Source of the DNA: a virus
Virus record (IMG/VR): IMGVR_UViG_3300014492_000004
Coordinates: 1 to 39,559 of that record
DNA: 39,559 bases
Direction: 5' to 3' (one strand)
In this document: one piece after another, positions 6,380-36,021 of the stretch
How the letters are laid out: each line of letters opens with the position of its first letter
Position numbering within the stretch: the stretch's first letter is position 1
The notes under the pieces: generated by a model
Databases searched by the model: none
What the model was told of the DNA's origin: nothing
Seen by the model: only the letters and a program-made list of their open reading frames with translations
Translations under genes and position numbers: made by a program

Positions 6380-6450
6380 CGCGCGCCGAGTACGTCGCGG
6401 AGAAAGCGGAACAGACTACTGCTTCACCGTCGGCCCCGCCTGCACTGTAG
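6376..6450 (+). CDS. Possible 24-residue peptide at operon end
   Basis: ATG 6376 overlaps the previous stop and reads 24 codons to TAG 6448-6450. The end overlaps the 3' end of the opposing beta-helix gene by 35 bases, so the two arms converge tail to tail here. No clear bidirectional terminator is visible at the junction. Confidence 0.25.
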   Translation: MTRAEYVAEKAEQTTASPSAPPAL

Positions 6451-7888
6451 GCCCAGATCGTACGCCACCGGAGGGAGGGGGGACGTACTGATAGGCTCCG
6501 ATGTCCCAGGGGCCGGAGGAGGGGCGCGAGATGCCTGCTAGGTCGCTGTCCAACGGGATGATACTTAGGGGGGTCAGGTTCTGTGCTGCCCCAATAGCCG
6601 GAGATCCTACCCCTAGCGTATATACCCCAGTCAGAAGCGGGTTTAGCACGATACTATGCGAACCCTCCGTCGCATCGTTACCCCCCGCTGCATACCAGTC
6701 GTTATAGTCGCTTAGGGAGATTGTCCCAGCCGAATTGTAATAGGCCAAAGAGCACTGAGATCCCGTATTGTTTTCTCCCGCCAGTACAGCTCCTTGATTC
6801 ATGATGCAGCGACCTTTTGAGGAAGGCTGATAAACGAAGGTATTGTTGTAGATGCTGACAGCCGGGTTTCCTCCGTTGGCCTTGGCGATTATTTGGGCAT
6901 TCGATGGCGCGTCTATTGTCGAAGAATTTACGAAAAGGTTGTTGAAGACGACCGTTCCGTCATAGGAAGCGTGGGAGCCACTACCGTTGCCCTCTGAATC
7001 GAGGAAAATATTTCCGGTCATGAATACACCGACATCCCCATAAAAGTAGTTACTGTAAACCTGAAGGCCCGCAATCCACGCCGTGTCATTGTTGATGATT
7101 ACGAATACTCCATTGTGGTGAAAATCGTTCTGGGCTGGATTGTCCCAATTTGCCCAATCGTGACAGACATTGTTATGGATCAGCATTCCAGTTGAACTGG
7201 AAGATGCGTTGCGGTCGGAGGTTGTAAAGCACCAGTTATTGTTGTAGCCAAGGTTATGGTCAATCTCTCCACCGGACTGAGTGTTTAAGTAATCAATAGA
7301 AATCCCCTGCTTCATATCGTGAACCATAGAATTGGTCACACGGTCATTGCTCCCCCAGAGATGTATCCCGTCTCCAAAACCATTTGAATCGTTGGTGGTC
7401 TTGACGTATAGATTGATGGCAGCCAAATTCTTCACAATGGAGTTGTTCGTTGGCTGTCCACAGACTGCATCGGTATCGACGGTGGCGTTGTTTGTGCTAT
7501 TGACGTTCGTATTGGCGACGTACCCATTGTAATTTGTGGGGCTGATCGACCCGGCTGTACCCCCGTCAACTACCACCCAATCGAAGTTGGAGAAATTTAC
7601 AACACATACAGTACCCCAAGAGGCTTGGGACATGCTTGCCCCAGGCTCGAATATGAGCTGCGTGGGGTTGCCGCTCGCACCGCTTGCTCCGATGCTGACT
7701 TGGCTCGTTATGTTCCCGCACAGATGCACGTTGTTGCCAGCGCCCCAATCGGATGAGGACAAGGATGAAACGGCCCGAGCGTTAGCGCAGTTAGTCCCGG
7801 TGTTGCTGCCAGCCGAGGTCTGGGCCACATACGCGTCGGCAGCGAATGATAAATAAGACGAAACTACTAGAAGTAGGATACACCGCAT
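6416..7888 (-). CDS. Signal-peptide right-handed beta-helix protein
   Basis: The 490-residue protein has an N-terminal Sec signal (MRCILLLVVSSYLSFA, likely cut after ADA near residue 19). The body is asparagine/glycine-rich with repeated short strands typical of a parallel beta-helix: DGIHLWGSNDRVTNSMVHDM, IHNNVCHDW, VYSNYFYGDVGVFMTGN and FNNLFVNSS. The C-terminal DIGAYQY resembles the DIGAYEY end of secreted beta-helix proteins. It is the last gene of the late arm, after two other appendage-like genes. A polysaccharide-binding or -cleaving role is likely; catalytic residues cannot be assigned. Whether it is virion-borne or exported alone is open. Confidence 0.75.
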   Translation of the reverse strand: MRCILLLVVSSYLSFAADAYVAQTSAGSNTGTNCANARAVSSLSSSDWGAGNNVHLCGNITSQVSIGASGASGNPTQLIFEPGASMSQASWGTVCVVNFSNFDWVVVDGGTAGSISPTNYNGYVANTNVNSTNNATVDTDAVCGQPTNNSIVKNLAAINLYVKTTNDSNGFGDGIHLWGSNDRVTNSMVHDMKQGISIDYLNTQSGGEIDHNLGYNNNWCFTTSDRNASSSSTGMLIHNNVCHDWANWDNPAQNDFHHNGVFVIINNDTAWIAGLQVYSNYFYGDVGVFMTGNIFLDSEGNGSGSHASYDGTVVFNNLFVNSSTIDAPSNAQIIAKANGGNPAVSIYNNTFVYQPSSKGRCIMNQGAVLAGENNTGSQCSLAYYNSAGTISLSDYNDWYAAGGNDATEGSHSIVLNPLLTGVYTLGVGSPAIGAAQNLTPLSIIPLDSDLAGISRPSSGPWDIGAYQYVPPPSGGVRSGPTVQAGPTVKQ

Positions 7889-7892
7889 CGTG

Positions 7893-8639
7893 CTACTGCC
7901 CCTTGATCGCTACGGAAGCGCCGCACCAGTCGGTCGTAGATGCTGGATTGGTGGCTGTTACCGCGTAATTTCCGGCTGAAGTTGCAGACAGGTTATACCC
8001 TTCAGAGGAAATATAACCAGCATCCGCATAGATGGAAACCCAAGGGGTTGTATAAGTCTGAGTCCCGGAGGTTGAAAAATCCGTCCACCCTGCCAGCAGA
8101 AATTCGTTCCCTTTTGAGACAGACAGAGAAGTCAAACTCATCGCGGAGGTTGCGCTTCCCGTGTTACATCCCTCCGAGTGTACGTCTACTAGGGGAGTTG
8201 TGACGTTGTGCAGTTGTATCGCCGTAAGTCCTTTGTGGGTGAGCGCAGAACTAATTGTAAGTGTGACAAGATCTGTAGAATTTAGAGCCGTCACGGGAGC
8301 CGTAAACATCTCAACATATGACCCGCCAGATTTACCAGCTAAGGACACCCCGGTGAATACGTTCCCCGCGGTGTCTGAAACTGAGCCGGTGACCCCCGCG
8401 CTAAAGTCCCAATACGCAAACACGACAATCGCATCACCTGTCACCAGAGTGTCAAAGTGCCCTGTGGATATACACGTAGTGCCGCTGGCATTGCAGGTTA
8501 GATTAGCCACCGTGTACGCACCCACCCACGACGGCTGATTTGTCCATTTAGCCACCGTCGAGAATGGCAGCGTTGGCACATACTGCGGCCAGAACATCAG
8601 CAGCAGGTGAGCGAGGAATTTGGAGATGAGAGGTGTCAT
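7893..8639 (-). CDS. Beta-rich appendage or exported protein
   Basis: The 248-residue protein is read from ATG 8639, which overlaps the stop of the upstream fibre gene and lies seven bases after GGAGGG. The first 30 residues are hydrophobic (LISKFLAHLLLMFWPQYV) and could be an uncleaved anchor or a poor signal peptide. The rest is Ser/Thr/Gly-rich beta sequence (GDAIVVFAYWDF, NVFTGVSLAGKSGGSYVEMF, WCGASVAIKG). This looks like one or two jelly-roll or Ig-like domains, as in carbohydrate-binding phage proteins. Function is inferred only from composition and context. Confidence 0.62.
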   Translation of the reverse strand: MTPLISKFLAHLLLMFWPQYVPTLPFSTVAKWTNQPSWVGAYTVANLTCNASGTTCISTGHFDTLVTGDAIVVFAYWDFSAGVTGSVSDTAGNVFTGVSLAGKSGGSYVEMFTAPVTALNSTDLVTLTISSALTHKGLTAIQLHNVTTPLVDVHSEGCNTGSATSAMSLTSLSVSKGNEFLLAGWTDFSTSGTQTYTTPWVSIYADAGYISSEGYNLSATSAGNYAVTATNPASTTDWCGASVAIKGQ

Positions 8640-10168
8640 CGCACTACCCTCCAATTAATGGTTAAAGCTCCAGGGGTGATAATCCCGGTGCTCCAGTTAC
8701 ACACATCGAAGTTAACATTGCCACTGGTCGGATAGGCCGCGATACTGAGACCTCCCGTTGTCGCTGGGACATAGCCCGTAACCGCCTTGATTGACGCATT
8801 GGGGTTCCAGATTATCGAATCGGTCGAGACTACGTTTGTTGCTGTGGTCGTGACGACCGTAGCACAGGCTGTAGAAGCGATGGAGGAAGTACCAAGGGCT
8901 GATGTCCCGCTGGCGATGGTCGTGGTGAGGCCACCTGCCGCCGATAGGTTGTTACCGATGGCTGTCACTACCCCCGTGCCGGTGGTCGTAGTGGCTGATG
9001 CTTGACTCCCCGATCCAATAACCACTGCACCACTCGTTAATGATGCGGCACTGGTTACGCACGTAGTACAGGTGATTGTGCCCGTTGCTGTGATCGTGCC
9101 GCCACCGATTGGTCCAGTCGTGGCAATGCTAGTTACTGTGCCGGTAGGTAGCGCTCCCCCGTCCTGCAATAGGCTACCGTTCGTTCCGTTGAATGTCGCG
9201 ACGTGCCCGCTTGTTGCGCTTGCAGGTCCCATCACAACCGGGATGCTGCCGCCCGATGTCATCCACTCAGGACCGGAGAGAGTCGATAGCGCACACAGGA
9301 ATCCAGCGCCAGCCGGGACTGTGCCAGAGCATGTTCCCGTCCCAAATCCATCCAGACCTGCCGTACCCGTGAACCATGCAGACGCTGGAGGGCTAGTGCC
9401 TGTGGACACGCTGGTCGCGGTCGCTGCGCCGAGAACTGGGGCCACCAGGGTTTTATTCGATAATGTCTGCGTGGCAGTCGTGCCCACAACCTGCTGTGCA
9501 ATCGCTGCGGGGTCGTAGGTGGACGTGTTCATGTTGCCGCTGCCTGAACCGCCGCCGATAGTCGCCCAAGTACAAGAACCGCCAGAGCATGCGCAGCCGG
9601 ACAGCTGCCCGGCGCCCGTTCCAGTTCCGTTGTTGAAGTTGAGCGGTTGTGGCGGCACGCAAACCCCACTCGGGTTAGTCGTCACATTCACCAGCGCCGT
9701 GGTCACCTGCGTTCCCGTGTAGGGATTCGGAACGAGGTAAATGAGCACCTGGCCCGTAGCGCTGGCTACGGACTGCCCGCTGACATTCAGCGTCAAAGTG
9801 CCGCTCAAAATCTGCGGTGGGCTGATGAGCGATACCTTAGATGTCGTGGAACTGAGAGTGCTCCCCGCGCCGGCCAACACGTCAACCGATGCCGTGTTCG
9901 TCACAGTGACGCTGTAGCCGTTTGTGGGGGCCGTCGTCGCGCCGGGGATGAATTCGCCCTCATAGATTAGATAGCCTTGAAGTTGGGCCTGTTGGATGAG
10001 CGCCGCGGCCGCCGTGGCTGGTACGGACCCCGTGGAAGCATCTCCGGTCCACGCATAGGTGAGCACCCACACGGGTACTGCCGTAGGCGTGAGGGGCGCC
10101 AGCGTGACGTTTACGGTGCCAGCGGCGAAGGCGCACGAGGACATCAGGAACAGAAGGAGTTTTTTCAT
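8636..10168 (-). CDS. Tail fibre with Sec signal peptide
   Basis: The 510-residue protein begins with MKKLLLFLMSSCAFA, a canonical signal peptide cut before AGTVNV. Residues 20-165 match, at lower identity, the N-terminal domain of both tailspikes: WVLTYAWTGDAS, GYSVTVTNTASVDVLAGA, GTLTLNVSGQSVASATG. Two phage-fibre hallmarks follow: TATQTLSNKTLVAPVLGAAT (about 231-250) and GHVATFNGTNGSLLQDGG. The C-terminal half is Ser/Thr/Gly-rich beta fibre. The signal peptide on a protein with fibre repeats is unusual. It overlaps the next gene by ATGA. Confidence 0.78.
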   Translation of the reverse strand: MKKLLLFLMSSCAFAAGTVNVTLAPLTPTAVPVWVLTYAWTGDASTGSVPATAAAALIQQAQLQGYLIYEGEFIPGATTAPTNGYSVTVTNTASVDVLAGAGSTLSSTTSKVSLISPPQILSGTLTLNVSGQSVASATGQVLIYLVPNPYTGTQVTTALVNVTTNPSGVCVPPQPLNFNNGTGTGAGQLSGCACSGGSCTWATIGGGSGSGNMNTSTYDPAAIAQQVVGTTATQTLSNKTLVAPVLGAATATSVSTGTSPPASAWFTGTAGLDGFGTGTCSGTVPAGAGFLCALSTLSGPEWMTSGGSIPVVMGPASATSGHVATFNGTNGSLLQDGGALPTGTVTSIATTGPIGGGTITATGTITCTTCVTSAASLTSGAVVIGSGSQASATTTTGTGVVTAIGNNLSAAGGLTTTIASGTSALGTSSIASTACATVVTTTATNVVSTDSIIWNPNASIKAVTGYVPATTGGLSIAAYPTSGNVNFDVCNWSTGIITPGALTINWRVVR

Positions 10169-19815: not shown

Positions 19816-20862
19816 CTAGTAAACCATCATGAACGGCCCGTACAGCGTGGTGAACGTTGTAGTGGGCGTAATCGCGGTTACGGTGCCGAAAACGCCAGCG
19901 GCTTTTTTGACCGTACCCATGAGAGTCGGCGCGCCGCCTGTTTTGTAGGCGGTGAACGTGTCTGTCGTCCCGTTGCCTTGCAACCCGATGAAATAGGTGG
20001 CCGGGCCAACGAGATTGACTGTAGCGGTCCATGCGGCGCACTGGTATAGCGATGCGCCCGAGGTGGTGACGCCAGCTAGGGCAGTAGTGGCGACGACCGC
20101 GCCGGTGGCATCCCAAATAGCGAAAAGCCACTTGTCCGTTCCGACCGTGGCGCCGTTGAGCACGCACGCGCCGGTAGAGGTAAAGGAATTGGGAATTTGG
20201 ATTTGGGTAGCCCATTCCACGCCCGCGATATCCGTTACCGCAGTGCCGGCGATGCTGTTGGAAAGCGTGGTAAAGGCCGTGTACGGGTTCACGTTCGTTA
20301 CGGGACCTTGAGCTTCCCCAAGAGTCGTTGTGGACCAATACCCGGACACGCAATTAGCCAAACCACCGGAGAAATCCGAGTTATTCGGCCCGTAGACGAT
20401 GACGGGCAGGGAATACTGTACGGAAGCGGTACAAGTGCCGCTAGGCACGTTCGGGGTAAAAATGCCACCGGAGAACGGGTGCGAGTTATCGCCGCTCCCG
20501 GTTGCAACGTTTCCGACCCATAAAGTAGCGTTGACGGAGTGGCCGTAATTCGCCGAAGTCCCAAGCTGCCCGCGCTTGACGTTGTAGCAGGTGCTGGAAG
20601 ATCCGGCGGAAACTACTTGCGCGACCTCCTTGTCCACGAACAAGTAAGAGCCGACAGCGTTCGCCGAGAGAGACGGCAGGACTACGCCGGTCGCCGAAGT
20701 CAGGCACCATTGGCTCTGGCTGGCTACATTTCCGCCGCCTGCCAGAACAGCCACGGAAAGGGTAGTACTGGTGGTGGTCAACTGCGCTTGCGCCGGGACG
20801 ATTCCGAGCAAAGCCGCTGCCACCAGAGATGCGATTCGAATTAAGTTTTTCATGATGTTCAT
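19816..20862 (-). CDS. Exported protein next to coat gene
   Basis: The 348-residue protein is read from ATG 20862, seven bases after AGGAG; an internal ATG follows three codons later. It starts with a clear Sec signal (MKNLIRIASLVAAALLGIVPAQA, cut before QLTTTS). The mature part is Thr/Ser/Gly-rich beta sequence with seven or so cysteines (SSSTCYNVKRGQLG, VPSGTCTASVQYSLP, SLYQCAAWTATVNLV), which suits disulphides formed outside the cytoplasm. It lies 22 bases after the coat gene, where decoration proteins are common. The signal peptide argues for export instead, or for an unusual assembly route. Confidence 0.72.
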   Translation of the reverse strand: MNIMKNLIRIASLVAAALLGIVPAQAQLTTTSTTLSVAVLAGGGNVASQSQWCLTSATGVVLPSLSANAVGSYLFVDKEVAQVVSAGSSSTCYNVKRGQLGTSANYGHSVNATLWVGNVATGSGDNSHPFSGGIFTPNVPSGTCTASVQYSLPVIVYGPNNSDFSGGLANCVSGYWSTTTLGEAQGPVTNVNPYTAFTTLSNSIAGTAVTDIAGVEWATQIQIPNSFTSTGACVLNGATVGTDKWLFAIWDATGAVVATTALAGVTTSGASLYQCAAWTATVNLVGPATYFIGLQGNGTTDTFTAYKTGGAPTLMGTVKKAAGVFGTVTAITPTTTFTTLYGPFMMVY

Positions 20863-20884: not shown

Positions 20885-22147
20885 TTAGCTGATTGCGATG
20901 CGGACAGATCCCTCCGAGTACAGCGGGGCGATGCCATAATAGACATCGGTGCGGTTGGTGAACATGTCGCGCACGGAATCGAACATGCGGACGAAACGGA
21001 TGGAGACGCCGATCTCTTTGGACCGCGCTTCCATCGCCATGTCGACGCCTTCCGGCACGTCTCCGGGGAAGGACACGAAGGCATGCGCCTGGCGAGTCCA
21101 TAAGATGCCCTGTGCGGTGGACACGCCAGCAAGTGCGGATTGTCCGCCCGCCGCGGTGTTGTAGACGTTAACCAGGGCGCCAGCTCCCGGCGAGTTGGTA
21201 ACGTTCTGGAACTGTCCGGAAGGAACGATGGCCGGCAGGATCTGGACCGTCCCGGTACCGCCCGCGCTGGTCATGTTCTGCTGAACGACGAACTGCTGAA
21301 GCGCACCGGTCGACGTGCGGTTCTGCGGGTTTACCGCGAACACTCCGGCGAAGCTGATAATGTCGCCAACCAAGAAGTAGTTGGTTACACTTCCGAGCCC
21401 GTTGAGGTTGATAGCGGAACCGGTCTGGCCACCGCCGACTACCGCGGGAGTGCCTCCGAGTGCGCCGATTACCTGCACCGGGGCGTTCTGGTCTACCATC
21501 CAGTCGAGAGACAAGGCGTTGTCAATCTGCCCGGTCTTCCACTGTTTAGTGAGAGAATCCTTGGGATTGTAGAACTGTTTGGTGTAGGTGTTCCAACCAG
21601 TTCGCGCGTTGGAGTTGATGACCAAGTTACGGGCGCGGCGGAATTTCGCCTTGTCCAGGGGGAAGCCCATCTCATCGAGCTTTTGGGAAGCCTGCGAATA
21701 GATGTTGAAGGCGTCCGTACCGCCCAGTCCCGGCGTGGTGCCTGGGGTTCCGACGAAGTTCGCCGTGTTTATCATCATCGTATTGAGCGCCCTGAAATCC
21801 AGCAGGTTGCTCAACGCGGTCATGTACGGGTCAAGGTATCGGTCCTGGAAGTCGTCGAGGCTGAGAAACTTTTCCGAGGTCGAAAACTCGAAGTCGATAC
21901 CCGACTGTTGATTGATGGTTACCGGAACTTCCGTGTCTATCATCGCCTGCGGGGAGTATGCCTGCCCGTCGCGCGCGATCGCTCGTGGCGGCTTGCGGAC
22001 AAATATCGTATCTCCGATCTTGCCGCCCTTCTTGCCAAACTCCTGGTCTAGGTCGCGGTACATGTTCGGCACCACAACGCAATTGTTTTCCAGGACTTCC
22101 AGTTTGGCGTAGGTGATTTCCTGCCGCGTCAAATACTGGTTTGCCAA
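20885..22147 (-). CDS. Major capsid protein, P22 coat family
   Basis: The 420-residue protein is read from TTG 22147, seven bases after AGAGGG. The N-terminal ITYAKLEVLENNCVVVPNMY and KKGGKIGDTIFVRKPPRA resemble the P22 gp5 HK97-fold entry region. Residues about 240-340 form the inserted I-domain: VGDIISFAGVFAVNPQNR, LQQFVVQQNM, VQILPAIVPSGQFQNVTNSP. The end includes AHAFVSFPGDVPEGVDM and IRFVRMFDSVRDM. It forms the icosahedral head with the scaffold encoded just upstream. A hairpin with a GUGA loop precedes its ribosome site. Confidence 0.88.
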   Translation of the reverse strand: MANQYLTRQEITYAKLEVLENNCVVVPNMYRDLDQEFGKKGGKIGDTIFVRKPPRAIARDGQAYSPQAMIDTEVPVTINQQSGIDFEFSTSEKFLSLDDFQDRYLDPYMTALSNLLDFRALNTMMINTANFVGTPGTTPGLGGTDAFNIYSQASQKLDEMGFPLDKAKFRRARNLVINSNARTGWNTYTKQFYNPKDSLTKQWKTGQIDNALSLDWMVDQNAPVQVIGALGGTPAVVGGGQTGSAINLNGLGSVTNYFLVGDIISFAGVFAVNPQNRTSTGALQQFVVQQNMTSAGGTGTVQILPAIVPSGQFQNVTNSPGAGALVNVYNTAAGGQSALAGVSTAQGILWTRQAHAFVSFPGDVPEGVDMAMEARSKEIGVSIRFVRMFDSVRDMFTNRTDVYYGIAPLYSEGSVRIAIS

Positions 22148-23870: not shown

Positions 23871-26222
23871 TTATTGACTCATATCCAACCATACAGAACC
23901 ATTATACAAAAGGGAAATTACTGATCCAGAGGGATAACCAGTAGCAATATTATTTGCCGGATTAAGATGGGATTTGATTGCTACTGCACTTCCTCCACCT
24001 AGAGCAAAGGTGTTCGCCCCAGCCTGGAGGGTGTGAGCCAGTAAGATCTGCACCTGCATACCTGTCACCGCTTGCTGAGACAGCAGTATCAGGCTGGAGA
24101 ATCTGCCAACTATAGCATTGTTGGCTCCTGTTTCGGACGCAATGAAATTGATCGCCGGGCTCTGGACGGTAGCCGCCGTCGAGAAATTTCCCAAGTAATC
24201 TATATATCCTTTAGCCGTATAAGCACAAGATGGGCAACCGCTTACGTAGCGCCATTGCCAATTGCCACCAACTGTATAATTGTCCGAGTAACGATTGCCG
24301 CCGTTCTCTGATTCGGTGGCTATATTAGTCCCGTCAGTAAGTGTCTCTAATCCGTTGATCTTAAAACCTACATAATTATTCGTGTAGTCCTGGTAAGCTC
24401 CTCGCAGACCTCCAGCAGGGAAAGATGTCTTCCATCCTTGTGTGGCGGACACGTAGTTGTAATTGTTTCCAGTTATGACGTGAAGATCATCTTGGGCGAT
24501 AGAGATAGCGGTCGAATATTGTCCGGGAACCTGCGCAAGAAACTGATTTCCTATTGCGATAAGCTGTGCAGATCCTCCTCCGGCCTGCCGAATATCGATG
24601 AATTTAGATCCGAATGAAGATAGGCCCGGTGGCGTTACGTGATTGTTCATGAGGCTGATAACTAGTTCATTCGTATTCACGTCGCTCGCTTGGACGAGAA
24701 ACGGGACCGTCCCTCCTAAAAGCATTCCATCCAGGGTAATATGAGTCAGCCCTGAAAAATCATTGTCGATGTATACCGGCGTGGCTGATACGGACGCAGA
24801 AATGTACCCTCCATGAACCGCGAGTAAGCCACGGCTGAAATAGATTGCATACGGAACGATGCTACCGCCTTCGCTGAAACTGGAGTTAGTAACGTCCACG
24901 AGATGATAGCCCGCGCCACTGAATGTGGAAGAGTCCATATTGATCCCCCAAGACTCGAAGTCCCACTGGGAGATTTTTGTAAAACTTCCGGTGCCGTCCG
25001 CTCCAGCTACGAAGTTGAAGCATTGATACAAATAGCAGAGACCTTGTTCAAATTTTTGATCGTCAGCCCGCCCTACCTGTATGCCCACAACGCCAGCGTT
25101 AAATAGCCAATTAGACCCGATGTTTCCGAAGGGCCACAGATGAATTGCCCGAAAATAATTAGAGTCCAAAGATCCGTCAATGGAGATTCCTATGTCGTAA
25201 GCTGAAATGTCCAGATTCTCAAAATGACTACGGCCCGTATAGGCTTGCCATGCGCTACTGGCATAAGTTCCTTTGTAGCTTATTCCGTCCCAAGCACTCA
25301 CAATCGCAACGTTTTGAACATTAGCATCCAGTGTGTCATTCAGGTTGAGACCTGTCCAATGGGCAAGCAGCGTGCGGTTGGCGACCCCGAAGTTTTGAGG
25401 GAATACAATTTGAAAGTCTCGGAAGGATGGGCCAGCGATATTTTCGACCGGCTGGCCGCTGGAGCCACAGTCGGTATTGAACACCGCCGCAGTTGGATCA
25501 CTAGATGTTTGAGGAAAAGATGTTGTAGGCGCAATTATACTTCCCCGTCCAATTCCCACAACACTAGAATATTGCCAATTGGAACAAAGTGTTATTTTAC
25601 TACTAACTTTAAACGAACCAATTGGAATAAGAATTTCACCATTAACAGCTTCTGCTGCAGTTGCTGCCGCTTGAATAGCAACTGTAGAGTCCGCCACTCC
25701 GGTCGGATCGGCTCCGTATGTGCGTACGTCGAAAACCGGAGGATTCGTCATCGTCACCCAATTTGCAGGTACCGAAAGCGGGCCAGTGAATCCGAGTATA
25801 GGAGTGGAGGAAAGAAACACAAATACGGTTCCCTGTGAGTTCGCGACGGAGTTTCCGGTAAGCACGAGGGAGAAATTTCCTTGAATCGGTGGGGCTAACG
25901 CCGAGAATGCTTGGGCGGTAGAACCCAGATTTACAGCTGCCCCGGCAAGCGCGTCCACGCCGGCCGAATCGGTAATCCTCACCGAATAACCGGCAGTTGG
26001 CGATGGCGTACCCGGTACCGTTTCTACCTGGGTGATGAAATACCCGTTGCAGCAACCTTGCAGTTTGGCTGGAGTCACAGGCACAGACCCATTGCTGCCG
26101 GCGGTCCAATTGAAGGCCAATACCCAATTGCCGGACGTGCCGAGTTGCGAGATGGTCTGCTGTACTCCGGCCGCGCCGAACGCCGTACCGGCTAGAAAGA
26201 CCGCGAGTAGTGCCTTCTTCAT
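23871..26222 (-). CDS. Tailspike with Sec signal peptide and beta-helix
   Basis: The 783-residue protein starts at ATG 26222 after AGGAGGT. It begins with signal peptide MKKALLAVFLAGTAFG, then an N-terminal domain (about 18-160) nearly identical at its start to the next spike (GVQQTISQLGTSGNWVLAFN). At about 165 comes the pectate-lyase-type phrase DVRTYGADPTGVADSTVAIQ, which opens a right-handed beta-helix spanning most of the chain (IDGSLDSNYFRAIHLWPFGN, VDVTNSSFSEGGSI). The C-terminus is a small beta domain. It probably binds and may cut host surface glycans. It is the last gene before the terminator and differs from the second spike after the shared N-terminus. Confidence 0.85.
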   Translation of the reverse strand: MKKALLAVFLAGTAFGAAGVQQTISQLGTSGNWVLAFNWTAGSNGSVPVTPAKLQGCCNGYFITQVETVPGTPSPTAGYSVRITDSAGVDALAGAAVNLGSTAQAFSALAPPIQGNFSLVLTGNSVANSQGTVFVFLSSTPILGFTGPLSVPANWVTMTNPPVFDVRTYGADPTGVADSTVAIQAAATAAEAVNGEILIPIGSFKVSSKITLCSNWQYSSVVGIGRGSIIAPTTSFPQTSSDPTAAVFNTDCGSSGQPVENIAGPSFRDFQIVFPQNFGVANRTLLAHWTGLNLNDTLDANVQNVAIVSAWDGISYKGTYASSAWQAYTGRSHFENLDISAYDIGISIDGSLDSNYFRAIHLWPFGNIGSNWLFNAGVVGIQVGRADDQKFEQGLCYLYQCFNFVAGADGTGSFTKISQWDFESWGINMDSSTFSGAGYHLVDVTNSSFSEGGSIVPYAIYFSRGLLAVHGGYISASVSATPVYIDNDFSGLTHITLDGMLLGGTVPFLVQASDVNTNELVISLMNNHVTPPGLSSFGSKFIDIRQAGGGSAQLIAIGNQFLAQVPGQYSTAISIAQDDLHVITGNNYNYVSATQGWKTSFPAGGLRGAYQDYTNNYVGFKINGLETLTDGTNIATESENGGNRYSDNYTVGGNWQWRYVSGCPSCAYTAKGYIDYLGNFSTAATVQSPAINFIASETGANNAIVGRFSSLILLSQQAVTGMQVQILLAHTLQAGANTFALGGGSAVAIKSHLNPANNIATGYPSGSVISLLYNGSVWLDMSQ

Positions 26223-26301
26223 TGAATACCTCCTGGCGCGGGCTGGAGTGCTGCCTGTTGCGCCATCTGCTGCTGGTGCTGCATCCCCGTGACGTGCTCC
26301 A
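26132..26301 (-). repeat. Duplicated portal-end/spike-start segment, copy 1
   Basis: This 170-base segment matches 28731-28900 with two mismatches (26192 and 26288). It covers the first 30 or so codons of the spike, its ribosome site and the last codons of a portal fragment. Similarity continues rightward for another roughly 107 bases, with more than 20 mismatches. Confidence 0.92.
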
Positions 26302-26425
26302 CCGCATCCGTGGCTTCCGCCAGGTGGGTAACAACCGCATCATGGCTGTGGTCCATTTGCTTCTCAATCATGGCCTTGATGAGCTTGATTTTCTCCACGT
26401 CCACCTTGAGTACCACTCGTTTCAT
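26219..26425 (-). CDS. Portal C-terminal fragment gene (duplicate)
   Basis: The 68 codons from ATG 26425 encode a protein matching the last 60 residues of the portal (KVDVEKIKLIKAMIEKQMDH ... GMQHQQQMAQQAALQPAPGG) with only three changes (I/L, K/R, A/S). Most of the DNA differences from the portal gene are at third codon positions, so the peptide was selected somewhere. It begins just after the second spike's stop and its own stop overlaps the first spike's ATG (ATGA). It may be a recombination scar from another phage's portal, or a kept leader that delivers ribosomes to the spike. A start at 26446 is also possible. Confidence 0.6.
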   Translation of the reverse strand: MKRVVLKVDVEKIKLIKAMIEKQMDHSHDAVVTHLAEATDAVEHVTGMQHQQQMAQQAALQPAPGGIQ

Positions 26426-26430
26426 TCGGC

Positions 26431-28821
26431 TCACCATGGATTGCAACTGTAAACGAAAAAATGGCCATTGGCCGATGTAAAAGCGTTGAAACTGGCAGAG
26501 GTGGCGCTGAACCCAACATTAGGTAGAAAGGTTCCAGTCGTGGTGTCAGTAAGCGTGCAAGCGTATCCTCTCGCCGACGGCAAATTCCCCAGAGTTAGCG
26601 TACAGGTAGACTGCCCGGACTGGAACGTCCCGGACTGACTGAGGGAGCTGTACCCAACATTGGTCACCGTCCCACATCCCCCGAAAGTCGGCGCTCCAAC
26701 CCCCGTAGGGATCAACTGGTAATACCCATTCAGCGCCACGAACGGCTTAGTGAATCCCCACCCGTTAAAGTAATTGTCGTTGACCCAATTGTTACTATCC
26801 CCGCCGCCTCCCGTGTCGAAGAGAATAGCGGTCCCGGTGTTGCTGCCGATCGGCGGGAAGTAGTTCCCTACCGCCATAACTTTACCGCCGTCATGGTTGT
26901 AGATGGCGGGTATCAGGTAGTTGGTCGATGTAGAAGAATTCAGAATAATGTTGTCGTTGAAAAGCAGATCTCCAGGGATTACATTGCTGACGATCTGCCA
27001 CGAGCCACCCTGCCCCAGAAGGAACGTTACATTGGTGATTCCCAAGACACCGTTGTTGGAGAATAGTGGAGTTTCAGTGGAAAATACCACCCCGGTTTGC
27101 GTGCCGGCGGTCGACGTAAGGGTGATGGATATGTTGGAATTCCACGTCTGGATGGTATAGGGTAGGCCATTTATCAGGACCTGCCCCCCCGCAGCAAGCC
27201 CGGCAAAGTTCAGCAACCCAGATACGTATGACACCGCCGTTCCGGCCGTATTTACAATTCCGGTGTTAATCGCGTTCGAGATCAACCCGGACGAAATATT
27301 CAGAGTCCCATTTACTGTGAGAGTCGCCACCTGGCCAAACCCCAGTTTCCACACTCCGCTTGCCACTGAAAGCTGACCACAGTTCAGCTTAATCACCCCA
27401 TTAGCCGTATCTACCATCAGGCTCGAAACTGTTGCAAAAGTACAACTTCCACGCCCGTATGTCGGGTCATACTCGAAGTCCATCGTCACGGGGAAATTGG
27501 AGTTTTTGAAATTGGTCATCGCGAGATCATACAGCCCCGCCGTCCATAGAGCTGTCCCATGGGCGCCCCAAATCTGACCTTGGTTCCCGGTCATGTCGTG
27601 CGGATAGAACTGGTAGTTAGACAACGTTTCTTCGTTGTCCGATCCGTTCATCACAATCCCGTAGTTGAAGGCGGAAATCTCGATATTTGACAGCCTCACC
27701 TGAGTGCCGATTTCGACGAAAACCCAATTGCCGCCTGACACTGGACTTGTGGTCCCGCTGCACCCTCCCGTGGCGCACACGTATGTGATGCTAGCAACGG
27801 AGGCGAAAGCCCCGGCTGCATACGTATTGCCAGAAACCCAAGCCGGGGCTACCCCGTTTGGATGGATGCTGATTCCGGTCATAGCCTGGGTGATCTTGAC
27901 GCTGTCAATGGAGGCATAGTCGCACCCATAATAATCACCGCAAGCAATTCCTGGAGGAAAGTTTACCAGTGAGGCGTAGTTGGTCGTATCCGTGTTCTGG
28001 AAACGGATAGAGATGTCTCGGACCTTAGGAACACCTGGGCACAGATCACTTGTAATGGGGCAATTTGCATCCATTGCGTAGTTCAATACAAGCACGCCAA
28101 CCGCCGACAGATTGAACGACGGCGGCACTAGTATTACAGATCCTTGCCCATCGAAGACGATCGACCCCGTGCCGATGCAGGCATCAGTGAATTTGTATGT
28201 GCCGTAGGGGAACAGTACCGTGCCATTACCCATGGCTTGCGCCGCGGCGGCCGCGGAGTTACACGCGACCGTCGAGGACGAGACACCCGTGGGATCGCCG
28301 CCGAACACCCTGATGTCTACCACCGGGGAATTCGTCAGACTCAACCAATTCGTAGCTGCGGTATTGATAGCGGCCACGTTGACAGTCCTCTGTTTGGCGA
28401 TAAAAACGTATACCGTACCGGTCGCACTGGGTACCGAATTACCGGACAGCGAAAGCGTGAACGTTCCCTGAATGGGAGCCGCCGTTGTCGCCGCCGAGAA
28501 TCCTTGAGACAAAGTGTTACTCAGGGAAGACGCGGCCGAACCAAGCATATCGACTCCGGCCGAGTCCAGGATCTTGACGGAATAGCCCACAGTGGGTGCC
28601 ACCGCCGCGCCTGGGACAGTTTCCACCTGCACGACGTAGTACCCGTTACAGCAGCCTTGGAGCTCCGCTACCGTATTCGGTACGTTCCCGCTTCCGTCTG
28701 CCGTCCAGTTGTAGGCGAGCACCCAATTCCCGGACGTGCCGAGTTGCGAGATGGTCTGCTGTACTCCGGCCGCGCCGAACGCCGTACCGGATAGAAAGAC
28801 CGCGAGTAGTGCCTTCTTCAT
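26431..28821 (-). CDS. Second tailspike with Sec signal peptide
   Basis: The 796-residue protein starts at ATG 28821, inside the portal stop. The N-terminus repeats that of the first spike (MKKALLAVFLSGTAFG signal, then GVQQTISQLGTSGNWVLAYN). At about 168 it has VDIRVFGGDPTGVSSSTV, which opens a beta-helix. The rest is unrelated in detail to the first spike. It contains a carbohydrate-binding-like insert with the phrase YVCATGGCSGTTSPVSGG (about 335-352). The C-terminal 60 residues (STCTLTLGNLPSARGYACTL ... HFFVYSCNPW) have paired cysteines. Two different receptor-binding spikes suggest a broader or variable host-surface range. Confidence 0.85.
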   Translation of the reverse strand: MKKALLAVFLSGTAFGAAGVQQTISQLGTSGNWVLAYNWTADGSGNVPNTVAELQGCCNGYYVVQVETVPGAAVAPTVGYSVKILDSAGVDMLGSAASSLSNTLSQGFSAATTAAPIQGTFTLSLSGNSVPSATGTVYVFIAKQRTVNVAAINTAATNWLSLTNSPVVDIRVFGGDPTGVSSSTVACNSAAAAAQAMGNGTVLFPYGTYKFTDACIGTGSIVFDGQGSVILVPPSFNLSAVGVLVLNYAMDANCPITSDLCPGVPKVRDISIRFQNTDTTNYASLVNFPPGIACGDYYGCDYASIDSVKITQAMTGISIHPNGVAPAWVSGNTYAAGAFASVASITYVCATGGCSGTTSPVSGGNWVFVEIGTQVRLSNIEISAFNYGIVMNGSDNEETLSNYQFYPHDMTGNQGQIWGAHGTALWTAGLYDLAMTNFKNSNFPVTMDFEYDPTYGRGSCTFATVSSLMVDTANGVIKLNCGQLSVASGVWKLGFGQVATLTVNGTLNISSGLISNAINTGIVNTAGTAVSYVSGLLNFAGLAAGGQVLINGLPYTIQTWNSNISITLTSTAGTQTGVVFSTETPLFSNNGVLGITNVTFLLGQGGSWQIVSNVIPGDLLFNDNIILNSSTSTNYLIPAIYNHDGGKVMAVGNYFPPIGSNTGTAILFDTGGGGDSNNWVNDNYFNGWGFTKPFVALNGYYQLIPTGVGAPTFGGCGTVTNVGYSSLSQSGTFQSGQSTCTLTLGNLPSARGYACTLTDTTTGTFLPNVGFSATSASFNAFTSANGHFFVYSCNPW

Positions 28822-28900
28822 TGAATACCTCCTGGCGCGGGCTGGAGTGCTGCCTGTTGCGCCATCTGCTGCTGGTGCTGCATCCCTGTGACGTGCTCCA
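28731..28900 (-). repeat. Duplicated portal-end/spike-start segment, copy 2
   Basis: This is the partner of 26132-26301, offset by 2599 bases. Here the portal part belongs to the intact portal gene and the spike part to the second spike. Confidence 0.92.
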
Positions 28901-30929
28901 CTGCGTCCGTAGCTTCCGCCAGGTGCGTGACCACGGCATCGTGCGAGTGATCCATCTGTTTTTCGATCATGGACCGAATCAGCTTTAGTTTCTCCACGTC
29001 CACCTTGCCCTGCGTCTCGATGCTCTTGGTCTGGAGCTTCAGTGCCACCTGCTGCAAAAGCTGTTTGGCCTGCTGAAGTTGTTGAGTCAGCACCGCGTTC
29101 TGCTGCTGTAGTTGCGCTGGGTTAACCCCGCCCTTCTTGGCCTGCAAAGCTTGCTGAATCTGCGGCGGCATGGCAAGCTCTGCGATCTCGGCCAGGTCTT
29201 CGTACCCACGGAGCCGGAATATCGTCGGCAGGTAGAGCACGGCAAGCTGGGGGTCGGACTGCACTAACGATGTGAGGAAGTCGTCTTCCTCGTCCACCTT
29301 GGCCGCATAGGATTTCCCGGCTTGGATGATGACACCGTAGTCTCCGTCGTCGATCTTGATATGCGGCTGGCCCTCGTATCCCGGCACCTCGGGATTCACG
29401 CCGGGCTCCATATCCATCGTGATTGGCACGGTCTGGGATTGCCGCTGGTCTTCCTTCATGACCTTCCAGATCCGCGGCGTGTCGGCCAGCGAAAGCATGA
29501 GGTCAATCCCCACGCGGCCGGTATGCCACATAGCCTGTAGTCCGTTATCCTCGTAGTGAAAATTGGCCAGGGAGGTCTGCTGCGATCGGCGCTCTACGGC
29601 GATCCCTGACAGGTCGGCTTGCGATGGCTTGGTTACCGTGTCGACGTATCCGATAGCGCCCTTGAGCGCGTCAATACCCTGTGCCGTTGCTTCGGTCGAA
29701 CCCTGAATCATCGGCTCCGCATTGGCTCTTTCTGGGGGGGGCGCCAGGTTGCCTTGGATTGTGACAGGCTCGGCCTCGAGATAATAGTGCCGGCGGCCGT
29801 CGCGCCACTTCTTGTCCTTGAACTGGCCCTTCGTCCCGAGCCAAAGCGCGTCGTTAACGTCGGCCATGCGCGTTGCGGTCTTGGACATCCCAACGTTAAT
29901 GAATTGCTGTGGATCTCGAGCGTAACGCACCGCAGACACGTAACGTCGCTTTCCGTTACTGATTCTCTCCAGACCAAGCGTGGGGATGATGCCGATCCAT
30001 TCGGAAGCCCAAATCGACTCTTCGAGGCGTTTTTGACCATCTACGATGTCACGATGGACAATCCGCTCCGTCACCGGCCATGAGCGCGCCGGCTCGTCGC
30101 CTTCCATCAAGTCTTCGTCGGCCACTTCGGAGCCATCGGCCAATTGGTGCATCTTGGTTTCGACCTTCTCGACCCACCAATAGACGGCGACCCATACTGT
30201 GTCCTCGTCGCCCCATTCGTTGAGTTCCTCGCCGTCGGGGAACGGGAACGGAACGGCCTCGTAACCGGGGAATGCGCGCTCAAACTCTCCACGCTTATAG
30301 CGCTTGCGCTTGAAGGCATATTCGGCGTCGGAGTAGTCGAGTTCCTGAACGGCCGGGTCGAAATAGACGCTGAGAGGGTCGGGAACTCGCTTTAGCCGCG
30401 GCTCCTGGAGCCCCTTTCGACCGACGTACTCACAGGTCCACTCGACGTACCCGAACCCGCCAGAAGCCGCGTAAGCCTGGGCGCAGTCAAAGGCCAGGTC
30501 AGCGTGACTTTCGTAGAGGACATGGCGGAATTTACCCTCGATTATCTCGGCGGTCTGCGGGTTGCCCTCATCGCCCGCCGATACCTTGGGCTGTGGCCTG
30601 TCCTGGCGCGCCTGGTTTACAATCTGGTTTATCAGCGGATTTAGGCGGTCCATCGTTAGCGCCGGCACCCAGTCGGCGTCACGATTCTGCTTCACCACCG
30701 GGTCCCACTGATCGCTCGGGTCGCCGGACACGAAACGCAGATCCTCACGGAAGTCCTTGCGAGGGATCTCCCACCCAGTGCGGGCCGCCTCGAAGCGGTC
30801 GCGCATGGTCTGCATGTACTTTTCTTGGTCTTTCGTGGTTTTCTGGGAGGTTTTCTTTTCGGGAGGGGACTCGGGCCGCTGGATATTGTACGGCTGCGTG
30901 CCCGAGTTGGCGTAGGTGTTACGGCTCAT
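28818..30929 (-). CDS. Portal protein, P22 gp1-like
   Basis: The 703-residue protein forms the dodecameric vertex for DNA packaging and exit. The N-terminal region has TMRDRFEAARTGWEIPRKDF and ALTMDRLNPLINQIVNQARQ. The wing and stem region includes DPLSVYFDPAVQELDYSDAE, RKRYKRGEFERAFPG and a glutamine-rich helical C-terminus (LQQQNAVLTQQLQQAKQLLQ) that in P22 forms the internal barrel. Length and order agree with P22-type portals. The last 60 residues are duplicated before the first spike. A strong hairpin with a GUGA loop precedes the start. Confidence 0.88.
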   Translation of the reverse strand: MSRNTYANSGTQPYNIQRPESPPEKKTSQKTTKDQEKYMQTMRDRFEAARTGWEIPRKDFREDLRFVSGDPSDQWDPVVKQNRDADWVPALTMDRLNPLINQIVNQARQDRPQPKVSAGDEGNPQTAEIIEGKFRHVLYESHADLAFDCAQAYAASGGFGYVEWTCEYVGRKGLQEPRLKRVPDPLSVYFDPAVQELDYSDAEYAFKRKRYKRGEFERAFPGYEAVPFPFPDGEELNEWGDEDTVWVAVYWWVEKVETKMHQLADGSEVADEDLMEGDEPARSWPVTERIVHRDIVDGQKRLEESIWASEWIGIIPTLGLERISNGKRRYVSAVRYARDPQQFINVGMSKTATRMADVNDALWLGTKGQFKDKKWRDGRRHYYLEAEPVTIQGNLAPPPERANAEPMIQGSTEATAQGIDALKGAIGYVDTVTKPSQADLSGIAVERRSQQTSLANFHYEDNGLQAMWHTGRVGIDLMLSLADTPRIWKVMKEDQRQSQTVPITMDMEPGVNPEVPGYEGQPHIKIDDGDYGVIIQAGKSYAAKVDEEDDFLTSLVQSDPQLAVLYLPTIFRLRGYEDLAEIAELAMPPQIQQALQAKKGGVNPAQLQQQNAVLTQQLQQAKQLLQQVALKLQTKSIETQGKVDVEKLKLIRSMIEKQMDHSHDAVVTHLAEATDAVEHVTGMQHQQQMAQQAALQPAPGGIQ

Positions 30930-31271: not shown

Positions 31272-31380
31272 ATTTTCTCCCGTCCTTAATCGCTGCTACG
31301 GCGTACGCGAACACTATCACGACACAGAGGCCAGCGCCGAGGCCGAGCACGATACCCCAGAGCTTCTCGATTATCGGCAT
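31261..31380 (-). CDS. 39-residue single-span membrane protein
   Basis: ATG 31380 overlaps the upstream stop (TAATG). The peptide has one strong membrane helix (GIVLGLGAGLCVVIVFAYAV, residues 9-28) and a positive tail (IKDGRKYGR). It overlaps the next start by 11 bases. It could be a pinholin-like or regulator peptide, but the gene neighbourhood (chaperonin, portal) gives no lysis context. Confidence 0.58.
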   Translation of the reverse strand: MPIIEKLWGIVLGLGAGLCVVIVFAYAVAAIKDGRKYGR

Positions 31381-31856
31381 TATGCGGCCTCCAGCGGAAC
31401 TTGTTCGTTATCCAGAACGCACAGGACGTGCTGCTCCTCGTGGCAGATAGTGTACTCCTTCCCATTGATAATGACGTCGTTGGCCGGGATTCGCGGGTAG
31501 AGGATAATGTCCCCCGGCTTGACGCCCATCTCACAGCGCCCAACCTCTCCGGTTGACTCCAGATCTCCTCCGCACTCGAAGCATCGCCACGCGCGCCCGG
31601 CGACCCGCTGCGCCTCGGCGCCACACTGCACACACTTGGCGAATATGATCCGGTCGCCCGGGCCGACGGCCAGCACGCGGCCGCGGCGAATGCCCCGCGG
31701 CCTATCCGCGCGCCAGCGGCCGTCGCCAGTCATGTGCATCCCGGACTTGCGAACGGTTTCAGTCTCGGGGACGTGCTCGACGAGGCAGAAGTCTTGAAGG
31801 TGCTTCAGCTTCTCAATCGCGGCCGTGATGTTGCGGTACCCTTCTTCCCAGGCCAT
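31380..31856 (-). CDS. GroES-like co-chaperonin with zinc ribbon
   Basis: The 158-residue protein has GroES-like elements: an N-terminal strand LQDFCLVEHVPETETVRKSG, a mobile-loop-like stretch (about 38-55), then GIRRGRVLAVGPGD. The chain resumes with GVKPGDIILYPRIPANDVII and ends with YTICHEEQHVLCVLDNE. Between the two halves (about 72-110) lies an insertion with C75-x2-C78 and C92-x2-C95, a zinc-ribbon pattern. T4 gp31 is a phage GroES analogue that helps fold the capsid protein, so a similar role here is plausible. ATG 31856 overlaps the upstream stop. The insertion is the odd part. Confidence 0.72.
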   Translation of the reverse strand: MAWEEGYRNITAAIEKLKHLQDFCLVEHVPETETVRKSGMHMTGDGRWRADRPRGIRRGRVLAVGPGDRIIFAKCVQCGAEAQRVAGRAWRCFECGGDLESTGEVGRCEMGVKPGDIILYPRIPANDVIINGKEYTICHEEQHVLCVLDNEQVPLEAA

Positions 31857-32191
31857 TAGCCCCCCCCCAAAGGAATAATCAGGTCATCATCCACCGGAAG
31901 CCGGGAAACGTTTTGGTATGGGCCTCGGCTAATCGGATGAGGAAAGAATGACCCTGACCCGCCCCCGACCGCCACGAACTGTTTCAGAAGGGAGGTTTCT
32001 TCGAGGTTCTGTGGATTAATGCTGTACACTCCCGAGATCGTGAACAGGTCACCAACTGCCAATTTTTCGATTCGGTTGACCAGAGGCACCGGCACCGGCG
32101 TGGGAATTGCCTTCGGCAGAACCTTGGCAAGCAGCGGGGCCGCCGCCGCGCCAGCAAATAGGCCGAATAGTCCTCGACGGCTGAGTTTCAT
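31856..32191 (-). CDS. Tat-signal protein with coat I-domain-like segment
   Basis: The 111-residue protein is read from ATG 32191, six bases after GGAGG. Residues 1-35 look like a twin-arginine signal (KLSRRGLFGLFAGAAAAPLL). Residues 45-105 match the phage's own coat I-domain block. Here it reads VGDLFTISGVYSINPQN, LLKQFVAVGG and GPYQNVSRLP; in the coat it reads VGDIISFAGVFAVNPQN, LQQFVVQQNM and GQFQNVTNSP. So a single domain akin to the surface-exposed part of the capsid appears to be exported folded. The role is unknown; a receptor decoy, decoration or superinfection effect are options. Confidence 0.7.
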   Translation of the reverse strand: MKLSRRGLFGLFAGAAAAPLLAKVLPKAIPTPVPVPLVNRIEKLAVGDLFTISGVYSINPQNLEETSLLKQFVAVGGGSGSFFPHPISRGPYQNVSRLPVDDDLIIPLGGG

Positions 32192-32355
32192 ATTTCCCTC
32201 CCAAACTCCAGCGTGTAGGACTTCGCCAGCTTGTCCGCGATCCGGGGATTCGGAAGGAAGTCGAGTAGTACCGCGCCGGCCTTTTGGCCAGGGAATCCGT
32301 ACATCACCCGCCACCACTTCTCATTTCGCGCGTTTCCGTCGGCCCAGTAGATCAT
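32188..32355 (-). CDS. 55-residue hypothetical protein
   Basis: ATG 32355 opens a frame ending at a TGA that overlaps the next ATG. It reads MIYWADGNARNEKWWRVMYG, then a helical PRIADKLAKSYTLEFG. The ribosome site is weak, but overlap with both neighbours and normal amino-acid use support it. No function can be assigned. Confidence 0.5.
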   Translation of the reverse strand: MIYWADGNARNEKWWRVMYGFPGQKAGAVLLDFLPNPRIADKLAKSYTLEFGREI

Positions 32356-35448: not shown

Positions 35449-36021
35449 TCAAAAGGCCAACCCTACGAAGATTCCTACCAGCGGCTTGACGTTCTGGGTA
35501 CTCACGCTGTTGAGGTCGTAATCCACATCGAGCACGCAGTTAACGAGAGAAGTCTTCGAGAATGTGCGGCATACGCGCCAGGTGGCACCCAGGCCGCCCT
35601 GAATATTCGCTAGCAGGCTTGACCCAGTGATAGAAGTGGGGATTGACGTGGCGCCCGCGGCGGCCGTCGCGTGGAATATCAAGTTTCCGGCGGACGTGCT
35701 TTTGAGAAAGTACCGCGCGCCGAATCTCAGCGCGGCGCTGGATGTAGTGGCACTCCGCGGGGTCGCGTCGATGCTCATGACCGCCCATAATCCCTGTGCT
35801 GTACCGGGCGTGGGAGTCGAGCTGGCCTGGGTCACGCGCACGCCAAAATTGGTCGTCTCCGTCAAGGTAGCGTCGTAATAACTCCACCGGATGCCGGTAT
35901 TCGAGAAGTACGTCGGGCCAGTGGGAGTGGTTGTCTGCGCGAGGGCAGCGCTCAGGCAGAACAGGACCGCGGCGCCCCTCCGACAGAGCGCCACGAGTGA
36001 GGAGAAGCACTTTACAGACAT
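35449..36021 (-). CDS. Predicted outer-membrane beta-barrel protein
   Basis: The 190-residue protein has a signal peptide (RRGAAVLFCLSAALA, cut before QTTTPTGP near 29). The mature part of about 162 residues alternates polar and apolar residues in strands (YFSNTGIRWSYYDATL, FGVRVTQA, ALRFGARYFL, VLDVDYDL). It ends VGIFVGLAF; a terminal Phe is the usual BAM-complex signal of barrels. Size fits an eight-strand OmpX/Lom-type barrel. Lom-like phage proteins alter the host surface, so blocking reinfection is plausible. It has its own extended -10 promoter. Confidence 0.62.
   Translation of the reverse strand: MSVKCFSSLVALCRRGAAVLFCLSAALAQTTTPTGPTYFSNTGIRWSYYDATLTETTNFGVRVTQASSTPTPGTAQGLWAVMSIDATPRSATTSSAALRFGARYFLKSTSAGNLIFHATAAAGATSIPTSITGSSLLANIQGGLGATWRVCRTFSKTSLVNCVLDVDYDLNSVSTQNVKPLVGIFVGLAF

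Follow-up and report, generated by a model that had tools for sequence, protein, structure and literature searches.

The window, the whole 39,559-nt stretch of DNA analysed here, is a 39.6-kb virus record of a P22-like phage that encodes a coat protein, a portal, a scaffold and a probable large terminase. The coat was called through Pfam P22_CoatProtein, the portal through P22_portal and the scaffold through PHROG, while an unnamed PHROG is the sole match of the probable large terminase. The intact coat gene lies on the minus strand at 20885..22147 (P22_CoatProtein 75.5 bits, 4.7e-21; PHROG 283 major head protein), as does the portal gene at 28818..30929 (P22_portal 3e-109). About 1 kb upstream of the portal gene, among the head genes and in the interval between the terminase (TerL-like) and portal genes, sits an open reading frame of 111 codons (P0001; 31856..32191, minus strand), whose product is MKLSRRGLFGLFAGAAAAPLLAKVLPKAIPTPVPVPLVNRIEKLAVGDLFTISGVYSINPQNLEETSLLKQFVAVGGGSGSFFPHPISRGPYQNVSRLPVDDDLIIPLGGG. 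An earlier reading made from the letters alone (hereafter, the sequence-only reading) had given this gene its exact coordinates and left the strand unstated; the start codon ATG occupies 32191-32189 and the stop codon TAA 31858-31856, both on the minus strand.

The product falls into three parts, all encoded on the minus strand: a twin-arginine-like leader (aa 1-26, MKLSRRGLFGLFAGAAAAPLLAKVLP; 32114..32191) with the motif SRRGLF at aa 4-9, a proline-rich linker (aa 27-41; 32069..32113) and a block homologous to the coat I-domain (aa 42-109; 31865..32068). A Shine-Dalgarno-like GGGAGGG (32196..32202, minus strand) upstream of the ATG makes a good ribosome-binding site. On either side the gene overlaps its neighbours on the same strand: a 55-aa open reading frame (32188..32355) runs into its start (ATGA), and a GroES-like co-chaperonin gene with a zinc-ribbon-like insert (31380..31856; Pfam Cpn10 34.2 bits, cut-off 21.1) begins within its stop (TAATG). 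Contig scans returned relatives of these two neighbours from a single sister contig, L003. The zinc-ribbon-like insertion has the form CxxC...CxxC, and a related phage encodes such a co-chaperonin as well (L004:6877-7407). Just before the stop codon lies a G9 tract (31860..31868, minus strand; C9 on the plus strand; G8 in L003), the longest G/C homopolymer of the window and a possible slippage site beside the start of the GroES-like gene.

Compared with the coat protein of its own phage by BLASTP, the product shares 38% identity over 61 aa (E 2e-10), corresponding in the sequence alignment to coat residues 260-320 (21188..21370, minus strand). A profile of 79 coats scored it at 59-60 bits over profile positions 251-326 (59 bits for the block itself), as against a maximum of 3.7 bits among 2,080 shuffled tails of leader genes; such a profile search had been proposed in the sequence-only reading. 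A tblastn search of 50,697 phage records returned 34 matches, the best at E 1e-5, and every one lay in a coat or major head protein. These three results rule out chance similarity and, with coats as the sole matches in that collection, the block is not a generic motif of many proteins either. Since a profile of the aligned coat segment matches the solved I-domains or coats of CUS-3 (6mnt, E 4e-8), Sf6 and P22, the segment can be identified as the I-domain, bearing out the initial observation that the block lines up with this part of the coat.

The product shares with the P22-type I-domain (P22 gp5, CUS-3, Sf6; PDB 6mnt, 2m5s) the succession VGDxFTI..GVY..NPQN...LxQFV...QNV and, as far as the model described below goes, possibly the fold, but it differs in standing behind an export-type leader, outside any HK97-fold coat, rather than being inserted in an A-domain. 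It is also incomplete: the first strand or strands and about eight residues after QFV are absent, so that of the proposed “stand-alone capsid-like domain” the homology holds and the wholeness does not. When viral and genome contigs were scanned directly for close relatives, none was reported, although L003, missed by one of these scans, carries the gene; filtering of the low-complexity leader probably explains the omission. Apart from P0001, the short-frame I-domain matches within the best 80 viral-contig loci were coats, mostly cut at contig ends. P0001 is a real coding gene that joins a twin-arginine-type leader, in the same reading frame, to a truncated coat I-domain, and we hold the architecture of leader, linker and shortened I-domain with high confidence.

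An AlphaFold model left the leader and linker disordered (pLDDT below 50 at aa 7-41) and placed three strands within blocks of pLDDT 74-92 over aa 41-110, compared with the six-stranded beta-barrel of the P22-type I-domain. In a Foldseek search with this model, the top 18 PDB matches were all P22-like coats, the first being the CUS-3 I-domain (6mnt, TM 0.48); structure prediction had been suggested as a check in the sequence-only reading. Because the alignment that fed the model consists mostly of coat sequences, the fold match serves as a consistency check and not as independent proof.

With regard to the leader, its peak hydropathy is 1.9, as compared with 2.3-2.6 for the Sec-type N-termini of the same phage. 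It resembles Tat signal peptides in its S-R-R-x-hydrophobic motif, its mild, Ala-rich core and the basic residue that follows. However, the Tat model PF10518 matched neither P0001 nor the window record even at E 10, an NCBIfam scan, in which any curated Tat model of that collection would have been included, gave no hit at E 10, and several related leaders matched PF10518 only below its cut-off. The Tat signal initially proposed therefore stands as a twin-arginine motif with a mild hydrophobic core, unmatched by curated Tat models. Taken together, these features make export of the product plausible, and we lean slightly towards a membrane or periplasmic location, as judged from sequence.

The leader gene recurs in the sister phage L003 (IMG/VR contig 3300014838_000080, a 23.6-kb record), whose portal is 97% identical to that of the window. 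The L003 version encodes 71 aa with the same leader and flanks, the adjoining 55-aa frame and GroES-like gene being 98% and 92% identical, respectively. Across the 78 nt of leader DNA the two phages differ at two positions and the leader protein is identical, whereas the middle of the gene, comprising linker and tail, has been replaced. The L003 tail matches coat profile positions 97-125 at 21-22 bits (best of 1,000 shuffles, 0.2), then continues with LAVGDVFSI, the equivalent of the first strand of the P0001 block, and stops. The body of the I-domain has been lost at a sharp break leading into the G-tract, and no second I-domain copy, the coat aside, was found in the 23.6-kb record. As L003 has lost most of the I-domain while keeping the leader, the I-domain body is dispensable, and the earlier description of the copy as “old and kept” is half right: the leader has been retained, but of the I-domain just the first strand. 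An ancestral fusion of the leader with a miniature coat may have eroded differently in the two phages.

These differences bear on whether the gene is a decaying relic, that is, a coat fragment duplicated or captured, fused by illegitimate recombination, under no selection and on its way to being lost. The L003 allele, with its abrupt loss of the I-domain body, would fit such a history, as would the presence in the window of another partial duplication, a copy of the portal 3′ end. Nevertheless, the open frame, the ribosome-binding site and the start and stop overlaps with both neighbours have been maintained in the window phage and in L003, a distant phage harbours a second member of the family, and leader genes contain no independent out-of-frame virion debris that we could see (below). 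We consider a relic unlikely.

The second member, T104 (157 aa; L104:2254-2724, minus strand), emerged from scanning viral contigs with the leader DNA and belongs to a distant P22-like phage, L104, thereby providing the homologue that the sequence-only reading had suggested looking for in P22-like phages. Its I-domain is likewise stand-alone, yet fuller than that of P0001 (coat profile 233-323, 60 bits). T104 matches the coat of its own phage over 117 aa (E 1e-13) and P0001 at E 8e-11, and the first structural match of its model is again the CUS-3 I-domain. In an I-domain tree it groups with P0001 (support 0.84) and with neither phage's own coat; long-branch attraction may be the source of this grouping. 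The gene lies between gp4- and gp10-like genes on the strand opposite its neighbours. L104 additionally contains a second small open reading frame with I-domain-like motifs (L104:695-931, minus strand; VGDIFTIAGRHV ... LVLQRFIVTA), for which a search of the phage database gave no meaningful match.

To determine what else the leader is joined to, viral contigs were scanned with leader DNA alone, using patterns chosen after P0001 had been seen and dropping antisense or internal pattern matches. The scans returned at least 41 distinct tail clusters, a few of which are perhaps not genes. Among the matches listed, about 11 of the 41 tails match virion proteins and about 30 have no recognised virion match. 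Coat tails comprise those of the window phage and L003, that of L104, and a coat C-terminus in L195 (14.5 bits; shuffles ≤3.7). Other head proteins are represented by a T4-type Gp23 (L094, 35.1 bits, above the Pfam cut-off of 24.4), a major head N-terminus (L141) and the major head family phrog_9953 (L179, 6e-4). Portal tails occur in L138 (15.3 bits) and L101 (12.0 bits; shuffles ≤2.4 for both), and the remaining pieces derive from a phrog_673 scaffold (L261, 3.5e-5), a minor tail protein (L268) and a tail collar (L248, 1e-7). Some tails are composite, with a coat piece stitched to a portal piece in L101 and coat pieces in swapped order in L195.

The parent genes checked in these records encode structural proteins of the head, the portal or the tail. 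For seven tails an intact counterpart was found within the record itself at E<1e-3, in each case in the sense, true reading frame, though short matches near this threshold are individually weak. With the window excluded, such matches occurred for 6 of 35 leader genes, as compared with 1 among 229 further small genes (Fisher p 2.3e-5). These controls came from nine of the records and were not matched for a leader, and several records are fragments; the single control paralogue is the portal duplication of the window. Antisense matches of leader tails proved to be shadows of in-frame ones, and independent out-of-frame virion matches at E<1e-3 were not seen, which disfavours random recombination debris; ancient out-of-frame captures would easily be missed, given that matches were sought at the protein level. 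The tails have diverged deeply from all coats sampled and their frames nevertheless remain open, which points to coding constraint. We conclude that fusions of this type of leader with fragments of a phage's own virion proteins, chiefly the major head protein and the portal, probably form a recurrent class. No description of phage proteins joining an export-type leader to the phage's own virion or capsid fragments was found in the literature, and the best reading is that these fusions constitute a so far undescribed, mosaic class.

Several candidates were set aside. The leaders found in L095 and L096 are parts of unrelated proteins, a borderline same-record match in G032 (E 0.002) was left out of the count, and a 198-aa protein of L199 (L199:13449, minus strand; 6.0 bits to the coat profile, no PHROG match) was not counted. 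The L199 protein nevertheless resembles a condensed coat, from N-terminal motifs through to a C-terminal RFDMIYG. The leader proteins of L146 and L270 have in common a DPERxLWVxGAKTISIP motif directly after the leader and are perhaps a separate subfamily.

Leaders are alike across this set while tails differ in nearly every phage, a pattern that gives rise to the strongest rival explanation: function would reside in the leader, a small peptide secreted or lodged in the membrane, and the tails would be evolutionarily labile and repeatedly rebuilt from in-frame virion pieces that would not need the original function of their source genes. This accords with a leader that is identical in the window phage and L003 next to a replaced linker and tail, with pieces that are short and at times stitched from two genes or reordered, and with the many tails of no recognised origin. 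Against it stand the sense frame of all same-record matches at E<1e-3, the retention of conserved coat columns (23 of 37 in P0001 and 21 of 37 in T104) and the convergence of unrelated phages on head proteins. On balance, we regard a working leader with labile tails as possible but rather improbable.

The position of the gene varies as well. In L101 it comes immediately before the portal gene, and in G015 it sits between the coat and portal genes; in G003 it is encoded on the opposite strand, flanked by gp4- and gp10-like genes, and in L094 about 50 kb separate it from the capsid gene. This variation is relevant to a role as a head-assembly accessory, with the leader anchoring a coat piece at the inner membrane so as to tether or nucleate procapsids, perhaps together with the adjacent GroES-like co-chaperonin. 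In the window the location among head genes and the overlap with the GroES-like gene would suit this role, and on a published coat domain map several pieces (P-domain 97-125, I-domain, Gp23 112-175) come from assembly-relevant coat regions (PMC9965877). The positions in G003 and L094 do not suit it, however, and collar and minor tail pieces are misfits. Like a relic, an assembly tether is among the less likely rivals, and we consider it very improbable.

The reading we prefer, to which we assign a probability of roughly 0.45 as a whole, is that of an in-frame fusion, one of a recurrent class, that yields a membrane-targeted mimic of the phage's own virion proteins. Guided by its leader, the product would reach the inner membrane or pass through it, leaving a folded part of the coat surface at a distance from capsid assembly, where it could act as a mimic. 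The sequence-only reading had itself put forward a decoy, decoration of the host surface or a part in head assembly as possible roles. Translation, export, folding and any decoy role of the P0001 product are inferred. If it is a mimic, its likeliest job would be that of a decoy for whatever would otherwise bind the coat, for example a host sensor of head proteins or some membrane or periplasmic factor. A decoy is attractive because a number of bacterial defence systems detect capsid, portal, terminase or tail-tube proteins (PMC10286901), but we view this role as doubtful, and the broader proposal that self-mimics serve many unrelated phages as decoys, sequestered at the membrane or exported, against defence systems that sense capsid and portal is, if anything, more speculative still. 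Were the proteins decoys, they would represent a counter-defence strategy against capsid- or portal-sensing systems; were they leader peptides with disposable tails, they would illustrate gene birth from virion parts. That the fusions recur over P22-type, T4-type and other capsid families, in every case in frame, suggests repeated selection for delivering pieces of the capsid to the membrane or the periplasm.

Among known phage proteins, two groups invite comparison. Capsid paralogues and decoration proteins such as T4 gp24 and phage L Dec are accessory proteins related to or bound to the head, and the fusions resemble them in being head-related accessories; to our knowledge, however, no such protein carries an export leader or is a patchwork of fragments. 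Membrane or exported morons, such as superinfection-exclusion proteins, are similar in being small late-region genes with variable genome positions and, as predicted for the fusions, membrane targeting. We know of no phage moron built from the phage's own head proteins, and a literature search for morons or superinfection-exclusion proteins of this origin found no such paper. The overlap of P0001 with both neighbouring genes also argues against moron-like autonomy, with its own promoter and terminator.

Two further observations concern the window itself. The duplicated portal 3′ end (26222-26437 versus 28821-29006, both minus strand; 95% over 62 aa) lies before the second of two fibre-like genes whose first 40 aa are nearly alike, indicating that portal end and fibre were duplicated together in tandem. 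Moreover, Sec-type signal peptides (for example, MKKALLAVFLAGTAFGAAG and MKKLLLFLMSSCAFAAG) open several large fibre-like or beta-helix-like and other proteins of the window (23871-26222, 26431-28821, 8636-10168, 6416-7888, 35449-36021 and ~19816-20750, all minus strand), Sec-type N-termini being unusual in tail proteins.
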